Shown one piece after another: positions 27,270 to 46,485 of a stretch of DNA of 64,000 nucleotides. Position 1 is the first letter of the stretch. Every line of letters begins with the position of its first letter. Made by a program: the position numbers and the translations under genes. The notes under the pieces are model-generated. The model did not search any database. It had not been told where the DNA came from and was given only the letters and a program-made list of their open reading frames with translations. Source of the stretch: a candidate division FCPU426 bacterium (lineage in GTDB: Bacteria > Oederibacteriota > Muellerivitia > Muellerivitales > DAHXKG01); contig DAHXKG010000005.1 of NCBI GenBank assembly GCA_027366525.1, forward strand, positions 128,575-192,574, in the 5' to 3' direction.

Positions 27270-28616
27270 ATGCCGCCATTTCGAAATCAAAAGACAATTA
27301 AAGCTCCGGTAGAATTTGACGGGGTTGGATTGCATACGGGAACCCAAGCCAAGATGGTTGTACAACCAGCTGATGCAAACTATGGGATCCGTTTTTTCAA
27401 ACGCGAAACACAAGAAGAAATTTTTCTTTCGCCACAAAATATCAGTAGTACAAATCGGGGCACTACGCTCAAAGGAGCCAAAGGATCATTAGTTCATACC
27501 GTGGAGCATTTTTTGGCAAGTGTTGGTGGATTAGAATTAGACAATCTCCGAGTTGAAATTCAAGGCGATGAAATACCGATTTTAGATGGAAGTGCATGGC
27601 CATTTTTAAAAAAATTAAAAGATGTAGGTTTTCAGGAACAATCGGAAATCATTTCGCCGGTTATTATTCAGGAAACTAAGGAATGGAAATTCGATAATAC
27701 GCTCTTGAAAGTTGAACCGGCTGACCAACTGATCTTGGATGTTAAAGTTTCATTTCCATATCCAGGAATGGAAAATCAATCATATTTATTTACCTTAAAA
27801 AATGGAAATTTTGAGACGGAATTAGCCCGTGCACGAACTTTTTGTTTTGAAGATGAAATCGAAATATTGAAATCGCAAGGCCTTATTAAAGGTGGGAGTT
27901 TGGACTGTGCACTTGTTATTGGAAAACAAGGCGTTTTAAATGGTCCTTTGCGTTATTCAGATGAACTGGTTCGTCACAAGACACTTGATTTATTAGGTGA
28001 TTTGATGATTTTAAATCGCCCAATACTTGGGAAAATATCAATTGTTCGAGGAGGTCATAAATATCATTTTGAGCTAGTAAAAAAAATAGAGGAAATGTCA
28101 ATGAACCATGAAGAAATGTCAGTGAACCATAATGATACAATCCAAATTGATTTTCAAAAAAGTGAGCGTCTTTTGAACATAAATGAAATTCAAAAACTTA
28201 TTCCACATCGATATCCATTTTTGTTGGTTGATCGAATACTAGAGTTGGTTCCTTATGAACGAGCTGTTGGAATCAAAAATGTATCCATAAATGAACCATT
28301 TTTTCAAGGCCATTTCCCGCAACATGCGGTTATGCCGGGTGTTTTAATTATTGAAGCATTAGCTCAAGTTGCCGGAGTGGCATTTTTCCCTACGCCACAA
28401 AGTACGGTAGGGCAAATGATGTATCTTGCAGGCATTGATAGTGCAAGATTTCGTAAACCAGTTTTTCCAGGAGATCAAATTCGCCTTGTAACAGAAATTG
28501 TACTAAAAAGAGGGAAAATGATGAAGGCCTCAGGAAAGGCGTATGTTGACGGGCAACTGGTAACAGAGGCAGAGTTTAGATGCATTTTAGTTGATGTTCT
28601 TAATGAAAGGGCTTAA
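27270..28616 (+). CDS. lpxC-fabZ: LpxC-FabZ bifunctional fusion: UDP-3-O-acyl-GlcNAc deacetylase / 3-hydroxyacyl-ACP dehydratase
   Basis: 448 residues. Residues 1-272 are LpxC: zinc ligands His80 (HTVEH), His236 and Asp240 (VRHKTLDLLGD), and His263 (GGHKYH). Residues ~300-448 are FabZ: LIPHRYPFLLVDRI, GHFPQHAVMPGVLIIEALAQ with catalytic His348 and Glu362. LpxC commits to lipid A; FabZ dehydrates 3-hydroxyacyl-ACP toward saturated fatty acids. Both use the same acyl-ACP pool, so the fusion couples the two fates. Such fusions are known in Bacteroidota and some other diderm phyla. The linker (274-287) holds two copies of EEMSxNH. No separate fabZ is seen with the fab genes at 52-58 kb. Confidence 0.96.
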   Translation: MPPFRNQKTIKAPVEFDGVGLHTGTQAKMVVQPADANYGIRFFKRETQEEIFLSPQNISSTNRGTTLKGAKGSLVHTVEHFLASVGGLELDNLRVEIQGDEIPILDGSAWPFLKKLKDVGFQEQSEIISPVIIQETKEWKFDNTLLKVEPADQLILDVKVSFPYPGMENQSYLFTLKNGNFETELARARTFCFEDEIEILKSQGLIKGGSLDCALVIGKQGVLNGPLRYSDELVRHKTLDLLGDLMILNRPILGKISIVRGGHKYHFELVKKIEEMSMNHEEMSVNHNDTIQIDFQKSERLLNINEIQKLIPHRYPFLLVDRILELVPYERAVGIKNVSINEPFFQGHFPQHAVMPGVLIIEALAQVAGVAFFPTPQSTVGQMMYLAGIDSARFRKPVFPGDQIRLVTEIVLKRGKMMKASGKAYVDGQLVTEAEFRCILVDVLNERA

Positions 28617-40616: not shown

Positions 40617-42698
40617 GTGAATGAACAGAACGCTTCAATATCAGGCTGGAAGTTGGCTATTGAGCGAGCACCATTGTTTTTATCGGTTATATTGCTATTT
40701 GCTTTACCGATAATGACTCAATTAAAAGATGCCAATCCAATATACATAAAAAATATTTTAACAAATATTTTAATTCCATTGATCATTGAATTTTGGATTA
40801 TCAATATAGCAATTTCTAAAAAGCTGATTTTTATTCGAACTCCGACGTTAATATGGATAGGACTTTGGCTGGGATGGAGTATTTTGAGTAATACGGTTTC
40901 GCCTTATCCACAGGTGGCATGGCATAATTTTATTGAATTTTTAAATCAGCCATTATGGTATTTAGGTTTAATTGCAACGTGTTTGGAATTATGGAAATAT
41001 GAAAATTTATTAATAACTTTTTTAGTTTCGTCAATATGGACGGCAGTTTGGGCCATAGTCCAATTCATGGGCATTTTGAAGGATCCATGGACAGTTATTG
41101 TAAAAAATGAATTTAATGGAAGAGTGGTTGCTGGATTAGGAAATCCTGATTTTTTGGCAGCTTATTTATTATTATCGTGGCCATTTCTCATGCACTTTTT
41201 TTTCCGCGAGTCCAATAAGATTTTAAAGATGCTTCTTTTTTTGCTTATTATTATTTTTTTTATGGCGGAAATAGACACGCAAAGCAAGGCGGGATATTTA
41301 GGTGTATGGTGTGAATTAATTGTCTATTTTTTGTTTATGATTTTCAAAGATCGAAGTCATTTTAAAAAAATAAAGTGGATATTAATGATTGCCGCAATAC
41401 TCGGATTGATGACTTTTATATCCCCTATTCGCCGTCGATTGTTGAGATTAGATAATGGCTCTAGTTCATCAGTGTCATTTCGTAAGTTAGTGTGGACTGG
41501 AACAGTAAAAATGATTTCGAAGAGACCAATATTGGGATGGGGGAGCGGCACATTCAAAACAGGCTTCCCTCAATTTTGTCCACAGGCACTTATGATGCAT
41601 CAAACACAATACAGTTATGAAGTTAATCATGCTCATAATTTTATACTCGAATGGGTTGCAGAAACAGGATGGATCGGGTTGCTTTTCCTTATCGGTATTA
41701 TTAGTACCATTTTCTATCAGTGGTGGAAGTTATATTCAGGTAATTATATACCTGTTAGTTTTGCTGCAGCGGCATTCGCCGTATTAATCGGTATTGGTGT
41801 AGATAATCTGTTTGATATGAATAGTTTTTTGCCTTCAACATATGTTCCAATAATTTTCATATCTGCTCTTCCGGTAGGGCTGTCGCAACGATTTTATTCT
41901 TTACCAAAATTTTGGATAAAAAAAACAGAAATAAATCTATCCAAGGTAAAGGTTTTACTTTGGGTTATTGTAATTGTTGGAGGAATATGGATTCTTAAGA
42001 ATACTCAAGCGGGATTTCAAAAAATGGAAGCCAACCGCTTTTTGAAACGGGCCATAATTTTTTCTAGAAAATGTGAATGGAATCATGCCATTCAGGAATA
42101 TCATGAGGCAATTAAACTAAACCCTCACAATTTGGAAGACATGTATTTTTTAGGCTCGGCTTATTATGATCGAAATAAATTGGGTGATAATCATAAAGCA
42201 TATTTTTGGTTTGAAAACGTGATTAAAATTAATCCAAATTATCTTTTAATCCATTATAAGCTTTCTCGGCTTTTCCATCGATTAAACCAAAAAAATGCAG
42301 CATTGATTCAGATGCAAAAAGCAGTTGCCTTAAATCCTAAAATAGTTTTTAAATTAAAAAAATTCAAATTGGCGAATTTATATGCGGAAAAAGATCATTT
42401 TAAAAAATCATTTGCTTTATTTCAAAATTTACAGAAAGATTACCCAAATTGTTTTCCAATATTATTGAATTATGGAAATGTTCTTTTCCGATTGGGCGAT
42501 TTAGTTCATGCATTACATGATTATCGCCAAGCTTTAAAGGTCGATTCGAATTCATTGTCGGCGAGTCTTGATTTTGGGTATGCGGCATATCGGTTACATG
42601 ATCATGCAGCGTTAAGTTGGATTGAACAAAAAATTAAACTTCAATTTAATAATCAAAATGAGGTTAAAGTGTTTTTAAATTATGTCCAAAAAAAATAA
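40617..42698 (+). CDS. O-antigen ligase/Wzy-like membrane protein with C-terminal TPR domain
   Basis: 693 residues, GTG start. Residues 1-465 carry about 11 membrane helices with the Wzy_C pattern: RKLVWTGTVKMISKRP, LGWGSGTFKTGFP and NHAHNFILEWVAETGWIG. Residues ~475-690 are periplasmic TPR repeats (HAIQEYHEAIKLNPHNLED, DLVHALHDYRQALKVDSNS). This layout occurs in O-antigen ligase family proteins of several uncultured phyla. The role would be polymerising or ligating a surface glycan; pilin-glycosylating ligases have the same fold. It overlaps purN by 17 bases. Confidence 0.85.
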   Translation: MNEQNASISGWKLAIERAPLFLSVILLFALPIMTQLKDANPIYIKNILTNILIPLIIEFWIINIAISKKLIFIRTPTLIWIGLWLGWSILSNTVSPYPQVAWHNFIEFLNQPLWYLGLIATCLELWKYENLLITFLVSSIWTAVWAIVQFMGILKDPWTVIVKNEFNGRVVAGLGNPDFLAAYLLLSWPFLMHFFFRESNKILKMLLFLLIIIFFMAEIDTQSKAGYLGVWCELIVYFLFMIFKDRSHFKKIKWILMIAAILGLMTFISPIRRRLLRLDNGSSSSVSFRKLVWTGTVKMISKRPILGWGSGTFKTGFPQFCPQALMMHQTQYSYEVNHAHNFILEWVAETGWIGLLFLIGIISTIFYQWWKLYSGNYIPVSFAAAAFAVLIGIGVDNLFDMNSFLPSTYVPIIFISALPVGLSQRFYSLPKFWIKKTEINLSKVKVLLWVIVIVGGIWILKNTQAGFQKMEANRFLKRAIIFSRKCEWNHAIQEYHEAIKLNPHNLEDMYFLGSAYYDRNKLGDNHKAYFWFENVIKINPNYLLIHYKLSRLFHRLNQKNAALIQMQKAVALNPKIVFKLKKFKLANLYAEKDHFKKSFALFQNLQKDYPNCFPILLNYGNVLFRLGDLVHALHDYRQALKVDSNSLSASLDFGYAAYRLHDHAALSWIEQKIKLQFNNQNEVKVFLNYVQKK

Positions 42699-43316: not shown

Positions 43317-44888
43317 TTGGAAAGTAAAAATATTCGAATCAAGCGTGCGCTATTAAGTGTTTCAGATAAAACAGGATTAATTGAACTGGCTAAAGGATTA
43401 ATTCGATGGAATGTTGAGTTGATTTCAACAGGTGGAACAGAGCAACATTTGGTTCAAGCTGGCATAAAACCTAGAAATATTTCTGAAGTAACAGATTTCC
43501 CTGAAATTTTAGATGGACGTGTAAAAACACTACATCCCATGATTCATGGCGGAATTTTGGCCATACGTGATTCAAACAAACACATGGAAACAATTCAAAA
43601 AGAAGGGATACCACTGATTGATTTGGTGTGCATTAATCTTTATCCTTTTGGTGATATTATTCAAAATCCGCAATGTTCTCTTAATGAGGCCATTGAAAAT
43701 ATTGATATCGGTGGGCCTTCATTGTTGCGATCAGCATCAAAAAATTTTCGTGATGTTGTGGTTTTAAGTTCTCCCCAAGATTATGCTGCCCTTTTAAAAG
43801 AAATGGATGAAAATCAAGGAGCAGTTTCATTATCATTACGTGAAAAATTTGCAGTTAAATCGTTTAGTTATACCGCGCAATATGATTCAACAATATTTAA
43901 TTTTTTTAATCAAAAATTTCAAAATGAGATTACTCCAACATATTTTGTTTTTTCTGGTAAAAAAATTCAAGAAATGCGATATGGCGAAAATCCACATCAA
44001 AAAGCTGCATTTTATGCAGAGCCGGCATCACAAGAACCAAGTTTAACTCATATGATTCAACACCAAGGCAAGGAATTGTCATATAACAATATTGTTGATT
44101 CGGATTCAGCACTTAATTTGATTTCTGAATTTACTTCTCCTGCTTTATGTATTGTTAAACATACGAACCCATGTGGAGTTGCAATAGATGCCAATATCCA
44201 CGATGCTTTTCTTAAAGCATGGTCAACGGATCCTATTTCTGCTTTTGGTGGAATTATTGCCGTAAATCAATTGGTTTCTGCAAATCTGGCAGAGTTAATA
44301 TTGGAAAAATTAAAGTTCTTTGAAATTATTTTGGCACCTGCCTATGAAAAAGAAGCTTTGATTTTTTTTTCAAAACGACCTCAGTTAAGAGTGCTAGAAA
44401 TTCCCTCCTCCAAACAGTCAATTAATGGTTTCGTGTATGATTTTAAAAAAGTCAATGGGGGATTTTTAGTTCAAACCAAAGATAGTTTAAATGAATCAAT
44501 AGAAAGTTATCAAGTAGTAACTAAGACAGTTCCCACTAAAATTATTTTTGAACAAATGATTTTTGGATGGAAAGTAGTTAAACATATTAAATCAAATGGA
44601 ATTATTTTAGTTAAAGACGGCAAAAGTGTTGGAATTGGCGTGGGTCAAACTAGTCGAGTAGGCTCTTTAGAAATTGCAATACGGCAGGCTGAAATGCGAG
44701 CAAATGAATCTGTAATGGCGTCAGATGCTTTATTACCATTTAGTGATAGCGTGGAACTTTGTAAAAAGCACGGCATTTGCGGTATTATTCAAACAGGTGG
44801 GAGTGTCAGAGATAAAGAGGTCATTGAATCTGCAGATGAAGCAGGTATTCCGATGGTGTTTACTGGGATTAGACATTTTAAGCATTAA
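43317..44888 (+). CDS. purH: Bifunctional AICAR formyltransferase / IMP cyclohydrolase
   Basis: 523 residues, TTG start. It performs the last two steps to IMP. N-terminal cyclohydrolase domain: ALLSVSDKTGLIELAK, ISTGGTEQHLVQAG, DGRVKTLHPMIHGGILA. C-terminal formyltransferase: RYGENPHQKAAFYA, CIVKHTNPCGVAI (catalytic Lys-His) and AFGGIIAVN. Full length, 32 bases after purN. Confidence 0.97.
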   Translation: MESKNIRIKRALLSVSDKTGLIELAKGLIRWNVELISTGGTEQHLVQAGIKPRNISEVTDFPEILDGRVKTLHPMIHGGILAIRDSNKHMETIQKEGIPLIDLVCINLYPFGDIIQNPQCSLNEAIENIDIGGPSLLRSASKNFRDVVVLSSPQDYAALLKEMDENQGAVSLSLREKFAVKSFSYTAQYDSTIFNFFNQKFQNEITPTYFVFSGKKIQEMRYGENPHQKAAFYAEPASQEPSLTHMIQHQGKELSYNNIVDSDSALNLISEFTSPALCIVKHTNPCGVAIDANIHDAFLKAWSTDPISAFGGIIAVNQLVSANLAELILEKLKFFEIILAPAYEKEALIFFSKRPQLRVLEIPSSKQSINGFVYDFKKVNGGFLVQTKDSLNESIESYQVVTKTVPTKIIFEQMIFGWKVVKHIKSNGIILVKDGKSVGIGVGQTSRVGSLEIAIRQAEMRANESVMASDALLPFSDSVELCKKHGICGIIQTGGSVRDKEVIESADEAGIPMVFTGIRHFKH

Positions 44889-44934
44889 TGGATAAAATTC
44901 GATAAAGTCTTTAATTCAAATCAGGGAAATTTCA

Positions 44935-46485
44935 ATGGAAATACTAGGTGCAATCATCGGAAGTATTATTGTTGTTGCTGTAATCAGTTTTGGATTATAT
45001 AAAATTTTTTTAAAAAATAGAAAATTCATGATTATGGCCATGGTACTTGAGTGTATTTTATCCATAATTCTCATATTTAATTGGAGTATGATTTTTCCGC
45101 TTCAACTTTTAATGATTTTAATAATATTTACAATTATGATATCTTTCTTGTGTATTTTTATTTTCCCGGTTAAATCGCGAGTAAGTCAAAACCTCAATAA
45201 AGCTAATTTCCCATTGAAAATTTTAATAATTGGAAATGGTGGGAGAGAGCATGCCATTGCTCATGGTTTGTTGCAAACAAGAAAAAATTTGCAATTGATT
45301 TTTGCACCTGGAAATGGAGGACTGGAAAGAATTTCTACTAAATGTATTCCCGTAGAATTAACGGATGTCTCGAAGATGGTTCAAATTGCAACAAGTGTTA
45401 ATCCAGATTTAGTTATTGTTGGGCCTGAAATACCATTATCTTTAGGGTTGGTCGATGAATTAAATAAAAAAGGCATTAACGCGTTTGGCCCTAATCAAAA
45501 GGCGGCACAGCTGGAATCGAGTAAAAAATTTACAAAACAGTTATTATTAGAAAACAATATACCGACAGCGTTTGCGGAATCCTTTAGTGCAACGACCAAG
45601 GCCCTCGATTATGTCAAGATTCAAAGATTTCCGATTGTTGTTAAAGCAGATGGATTGGCAGCTGGAAAAGGTGTCACAATCTGTCTGAATTTTGAAGAGG
45701 CCTACCAAGCGATAAAGATGGCCTTGGATGAGAATATTTTTCATCAACCGCAACCAACTGTTTTAATAGAAGAATATTTGACAGGAGAAGAAGCATCATT
45801 GTTACTGTTTTGTTCCAATGATCAAGTTATTCCCATGGTATCGGCAAAAGATCACAAAAGAATTTTTGATGGCGATCAAGGGCCGAATACTGGTGGAATG
45901 GGGGCTTATTCTCCAAGTACGGCAATGTCAGAGGCGATGGTCTTGAAAGTTATCCAGGAAATTATTCAACCCACAATTCAAGCTTTACAAAAGCGTGATA
46001 TTGTTTTTAAAGGTGTTTTATATGCTGGATTAATGATTACAGAGCAAGGTCCTAAGTTGATTGAATATAATTGTCGGTTTGGAGATCCAGAGACCCAGGT
46101 GATTTTGCCCCGATTGGAAACAGACTTATTAGAAGTACTTTATTCAGTAACCAACGAAACATTGAAAAATCAGGTATTAACTTGGAATCCAAAAGCTTCG
46201 GCATGTGTTGTTCTAGCCTCAAAAGGTTATCCCGGGGCTTATCAAATTGGGAAACAAATTCAAGGGATTGAAAAATTAAGCACTTTAGAAGATATTTATA
46301 CCTTTCATGCCGGAACTCAATTTCGGAATGGCGAGTTTTGGACTTCCGGTGGTAGGGTTTTAAACATAGTAGGACTTGCTGATAATTTGCCATCTGCTTT
46401 GAAAAAAACTTATGATGCAGTTAATCAAATCCATTTTGATGGAATGCAATATAGAAAAGATATTGGTCAAACAGGAAGGATTTAA
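44935..46485 (+). CDS. purD: Phosphoribosylamine-glycine ligase with N-terminal membrane extension
   Basis: 516 residues. Residues 94-516 are a complete PurD (GAR synthetase, ATP-grasp): LIIGNGGREHAIAHGL, FGPNQKAAQLESSKKFTKQ, VKADGLAAGKGVT, NTGGMGAYSP, EYNCRFGDPETQ. Residues 1-93 are extra: three hydrophobic helices (about 4-25, 32-50, 54-79) and a polar linker ending NLNKANFP. The long start has AGGGA 7 bases upstream. The alternative is TTG 45214 (KILIIGNGG), which gives a normal-length 423-residue PurD but has no ribosome site; no stop separates the two parts. As read, this places a soluble purine enzyme at the inner membrane. Confidence 0.88.
   Translation: MEILGAIIGSIIVVAVISFGLYKIFLKNRKFMIMAMVLECILSIILIFNWSMIFPLQLLMILIIFTIMISFLCIFIFPVKSRVSQNLNKANFPLKILIIGNGGREHAIAHGLLQTRKNLQLIFAPGNGGLERISTKCIPVELTDVSKMVQIATSVNPDLVIVGPEIPLSLGLVDELNKKGINAFGPNQKAAQLESSKKFTKQLLLENNIPTAFAESFSATTKALDYVKIQRFPIVVKADGLAAGKGVTICLNFEEAYQAIKMALDENIFHQPQPTVLIEEYLTGEEASLLLFCSNDQVIPMVSAKDHKRIFDGDQGPNTGGMGAYSPSTAMSEAMVLKVIQEIIQPTIQALQKRDIVFKGVLYAGLMITEQGPKLIEYNCRFGDPETQVILPRLETDLLEVLYSVTNETLKNQVLTWNPKASACVVLASKGYPGAYQIGKQIQGIEKLSTLEDIYTFHAGTQFRNGEFWTSGGRVLNIVGLADNLPSALKKTYDAVNQIHFDGMQYRKDIGQTGRI

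Follow-up and report, generated by a model that had tools for sequence, protein, structure and literature searches.

A membrane leader in frame with purD

The genome search found a single copy of purD, and in it a 93-residue leader with three hydrophobic helices runs into a complete PurD within one open frame of 516 codons without an internal stop. This frame probably arose by a lineage-specific gene fusion and, translated from ATG 44935, would give a membrane-anchored form of what is a textbook soluble enzyme. The gene lies in the 64 000-nucleotide stretch of DNA analysed here as a whole (the window), and the features discussed are listed in Table 1. The observation, first made in a sequence-only reading of the window, is confirmed; as a single-genome oddity in a well-known enzyme its interpretation is at the level of prediction and not yet established.

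Table 1. Features of the fused purD frame and its surroundings
Feature	Position	Strand	Basis or remark
purH, upstream gene	43317..44888	+	46 bases between its stop and ATG 44935
Shine-Dalgarno-like AGGGA	44923..44927	+	7 bases before ATG 44935
Fused frame, three-helix membrane leader plus PurD	44935..46485	+	516 aa, ATG to stop
Membrane leader (putative), codons 1-93	44935..45213	+	hydropathy, codon phasing, structure model
Linker, residues 77-93 (FPVKSRVSQNLNKANFP), basic	45163..45213	+	low model confidence
PurD catalytic part, residues 94-516	45214..46485	+	TIGR00877 match, alignment, structure model

The sequence-only reading had claimed that the frame passes without a stop through the three-helix leader into a complete PurD, and that a PurD of normal length begins at residue 94. 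ORF translation, profile matching and hydropathy bear out the first claim, and the second agrees with both the profile match and the starts of other PurDs. The PurD profile TIGR00877 matches residues 94–512 with 511.5 bits (cut-off 288) over profile positions 1–421 of 425, and Pfam GARS_N, GARS_A and GARS_C correspond to residues 95–194, 195–387 and 423–512. Residue 94, encoded by TTG 45214, aligns exactly with the start methionine of 26 other PurDs, and 64 of the 67 columns that are invariant in those 26 are kept; the three departures are the start methionine itself (L94), G at 273 and G at 295. At the GGREH motif the frame has already been open for 112 codons. The AlphaFold model consists of three helices, a linker and a separate PurD fold, the last with a TM-score of 0.95 (target length) to Aquifex 2yw2. 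The equivalog-domain profile, the conserved residues and the fold place the protein among the PurDs (phosphoribosylamine–glycine ligases), and residues 94–512 are a complete PurD with predicted GAR synthetase activity. The nearest named PurDs share at most 49% identity. The protein departs from the typical PurD form (usual start, soluble, 420–430 aa) by its 93-residue in-frame leader; the usual start and length are typical of PurD, not defining for activity.

Known bacterial PurDs (TIGR00877; E. coli 1gso, Aquifex 2yw2) are the same complete ATP-grasp enzyme, with the same fold and operon setting and nearly all of the invariant residues, but they are soluble and start at the equivalent of residue 94, whereas the fused frame adds the three-helix leader. 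In the eukaryotic trifunctional GART (PurD–PurM–PurN, 2qk4), PurD is likewise contained in a longer fused protein. However, GART carries its soluble partners, themselves purine enzymes, C-terminally to PurD, and the partner in the fused frame is an N-terminal membrane segment.

Predicted topology of the leader

The hydrophobic segments of the leader, at residues 3–21, 31–49 and 58–76, have mean Kyte-Doolittle values of 2.67, 2.42 and 3.15, and the helices of the structure model span residues 2–26, 31–50 and 55–76, followed by a linker with pLDDT below 50 at residues 76–90. Lysine and arginine are confined to the loop between helices 1 and 2 and to the tail after helix 3, and the N-terminus and the loop between helices 2 and 3 carry no positive charges. 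According to the positive-inside rule, positively charged loops mark the cytoplasmic side of the membrane, so that on this pattern the N-terminus would lie outside and PurD on the cytoplasmic side. Judged from hydropathy and sequence only, the transmembrane helices and the positive-inside pattern of an inner-membrane protein are both present. The proposal of the sequence-only reading that GAR synthetase is tied to the inner membrane is, together with the fusion itself and with PurD placed on the cytoplasmic side, the best-supported interpretation, as a prediction from one genome.

Searches of curated families gave the leader no assignment (best Pfam E-value 0.36; best NCBIfam score 17.2 bits, cut-off 33), no believable homologue was found among 45 genomes of the phylum, and the viral contigs searched contained no relative. 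Weak matches to the leader (E 0.003–0.6) in its own genome, order and phylum were rejected as antisense or unrelated frames. The nearby O-antigen ligase and its duplicates show no similarity to the leader and were rejected as its source.

Comparison of the leader with chance

T-rich DNA often codes for hydrophobic stretches, and a generic codon-usage model gives the leader a score indistinguishable from that of intergenic DNA. Both facts would suit a leader that is merely an untranslated, AT-rich purH–purD spacer, open by chance, with PurD translated from 45214. We compared the leader with a first-order Markov model of the 325-base gap from the purH stop to TTG 45214. Only 0.1% of the Markov copies of this gap have 93 stop-free codons in the leader's frame. 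Stop-free random sequences of matching composition attain the mean hydrophobicity of the leader in 0.07% of cases, contain three hydrophobic segments in 0.9%, and equal its codon score under a model trained on the hydrophobic gene stretches of the genome in 0.13%; each value is improbable, but these tests depend on one another and concern a single gene chosen for its odd look. The same codon score corresponds to the 20th percentile of the real hydrophobic gene stretches of the genome. We give this model more weight than the generic one in view of the almost purely hydrophobic nature of the leader; the miss of the generic model is a real caveat, explained in our view by the extreme amino-acid make-up of the leader.

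Codon phasing is pronounced, with T at 0.59 in position 2 compared with 0.25 in position 1, and A at 0.46 in position 1. It holds in each third of the leader but disappears over the final 13 codons, which correspond to the linker. Furthermore, a search for RNA elements or families in the leader gave nothing above noise, promoters or terminators in the purH–purD gap showed no clear excess over shuffled sequences, and the start that an untranslated spacer would leave to PurD has no ribosome site. A chance open stretch is therefore unlikely, and an untranslated spacer with PurD starting at 45214 is highly improbable.

Start site

The earlier remark that the long start has AGGGA at a spacing of 7 bases, and TTG 45214 nothing comparable, holds in terms of pairing energy, which is −4.9 kcal/mol at ATG 44935 against −0.2 kcal/mol at TTG 45214. 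The leader contains seven further in-frame start codons, and neither these nor TTG 45214 have a ribosome site. Shine-Dalgarno sites are common among the genes of the genome, and the median for 78 clear starts is −4.6 kcal/mol. Since 13% of noncoding ATGs in the genome have a Shine-Dalgarno energy equal to that at 44935, and 15% of clear starts have a ribosome site no better than that at 45214, the long form is favoured, not proven.

TTG 45214 coincides with the start of other PurDs, and TTG is an ordinary start codon here, as in purM and purH of the same operon. These facts would also fit two products: initiation at 44935 would give the full-length, anchored enzyme, and initiation at the internal TTG a soluble one. 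However, purM (−8.7 kcal/mol) and purH (−5.9 kcal/mol) both have good ribosome sites at their TTG starts, unlike 45214, and such dual initiation is distinctly unlikely.

PurD in related genomes

The comparison within the order covered eight genomes of one other family, with PurD in seven of the eight. These relatives have about 17–129 bases between purH and PurD, and their PurDs start at a conserved place with ATG, GTG or TTG and, in those inspected, behind a purine-rich ribosome site. The search of related PurDs for the extension, which the sequence-only reading had asked for, revealed no membrane leader in any relative examined. The leader is absent in about 40–45 genomes of the phylum (some judged by match start and open-frame length alone), in 117 PurD-bearing genomes of another phylum (judged by match start and frame length, with two long frames checked), and in 46 named contigs of several phyla. 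Five long PurD frames (in G017, G020, G035, G140 and G187) were rejected as GC-rich without hydrophobic segments, as a partial gene, or as non-PurD frames. Given this absence in relatives, it is most likely that this lineage acquired the leader, and the fused frame is likely to be a lineage-specific N-terminal membrane fusion, found in one genome. We found no description of a membrane-anchored PurD in the open-access literature searched.

A further long frame, in a genome of another phylum (G051; L120:2536-4671), encodes PurD with a C-terminal metallo-beta-lactamase/RNase Z-like domain. It was rejected as a membrane-leader case on account of this C-terminal fusion. It is also a lineage-specific bacterial PurD fusion, but its partner is soluble, C-terminal and without a membrane segment, unlike the leader–PurD frame. 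Two further families of the phylum have a small gene with a PilZ domain (c-di-GMP-binding type) between purH and purD (L089:8095-8510 and L091:7450-7850).

The chief rival to a fusion is a pair of separate genes, a three-helix membrane protein of ~80–90 aa and a PurD starting at TTG 45214, joined in this sequence by an error or by very recent loss of a stop. Towards its end the leader has homopolymer runs in which a one-base slip would mimic a fusion, and single-base length changes in these runs split the frame, mostly into a membrane protein of 79–93 aa and a separate PurD. The PilZ-domain gene shows that the purH–purD slot can hold a gene, and the fading of codon phasing over the last 13 codons is also what two genes would give. 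However, TTG 45214 lacks the ribosome site that a separate purD would use. No other pur gene in the window is broken or frameshifted, so that there is no sign of a high indel rate, and an error would be needed at precisely this place. Two genes joined in either way, by such a slip or by recent stop loss, are unlikely; even less likely are initiation at two starts and a leader that is not translated.

Proposed origin and meaning of the fusion

In the gene fusion that we favour, a membrane-protein-coding segment of ~80 codons would sit in the purH–purD gap, in frame with purD. Translation from ATG 44935 would then produce a GAR synthetase with three N-terminal transmembrane helices, its N-terminus outside and the enzyme inside. 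A flexible, basic linker of ~15 residues would suspend PurD at the cytoplasmic face of the inner membrane, where it would do its ordinary job, the conversion of phosphoribosylamine, glycine and ATP to GAR. We count in favour of the fusion the continuous frame and its improbable openness, the conserved residues, the phasing, the ribosome site, the charges, the structure model, the intact pur genes of the window and the single copy; we count against it the occurrence in one genome and in no relative, the generic codon model, the loss of phasing over the final 13 codons, the failure to find a leader homologue, the clear starts with ribosome sites as weak as that of TTG 45214, the use of TTG starts in purM and purH, and the departures at G273 and G295.

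If true, the fusion would show a soluble housekeeping enzyme gaining a membrane anchor by read-through from an upstream frame. If a sequence error has instead produced the frame, the case is a caution for annotating start sites and fusions in AT-rich assembled genomes.

Phosphoribosylamine transfer

Whether phosphoribosylamine passes directly from PurF to PurD in bacteria is a long-standing question. In E. coli, kinetics support this transfer, several methods found no stable complex, and a recent two-hybrid screen reported a network among purine enzymes (PMC10912719, section 4.2). The proposed E. coli channelling concerns the same unstable intermediate handed to PurD; it is transient and soluble, with no stable complex, and no membrane anchor is described there (PMC10912719). 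An anchored sole PurD would be a test case, because with PurD fixed the location of PurF can be asked.

The sequence-only reading had suggested that membrane placement could reflect a localised purine complex. This suggestion gained no direct support: by hydropathy, the other eight pur proteins of the operon (PurB, S, Q, L, F, M, N and H) have no membrane segment, and the anchor is missing from relatives whose operon is the same. A localised complex served by anchored PurD is speculative, since no anchor is present on PurF or any of the other enzymes. A benefit such as keeping unstable phosphoribosylamine near its maker is equally a speculation, for which PurF, itself without an anchor, would need to dock on PurD. 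It is very unlikely that the first purine steps have moved to the inner membrane in this way, with anchored PurD docking PurF and phosphoribosylamine handed over there. That the fusion is nearly neutral is no less likely than that the anchor brings a benefit.

Operon and genomic setting

The gene order purM–(O-antigen ligase/TPR)–purN–purH–purD–sua5–low-molecular-weight phosphatase–rpiB–recG–rsmD is kept in most of the same-order genomes. The gene between purM and purN (40617-42698), inside the pur operon, combines a membrane part of the O-antigen-ligase type (Wzy_C) with a TPR part, and overlaps the start of purN. Same-order relatives (L084-L087) share this arrangement, which is doubled in L085 and L086. 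The earlier statement that purine and membrane functions are mixed among the neighbouring genes is true, as this gene shows; however, the mixture is older than the fusion and is shared with same-order relatives whose PurD is soluble. Elsewhere in the window, LpxC is fused with a FabZ-type dehydratase in one protein of 448 aa (27270-28616).

The G+C content of the window (1-64000) is 36%, compared with 48–58% in the pur regions of the same-order genomes, and the genome comprises 2.0 Mb, compared with 2.4–4.1 Mb in those genomes. We note from these values a shift in base composition in this lineage, perhaps with a reduction in genome size.
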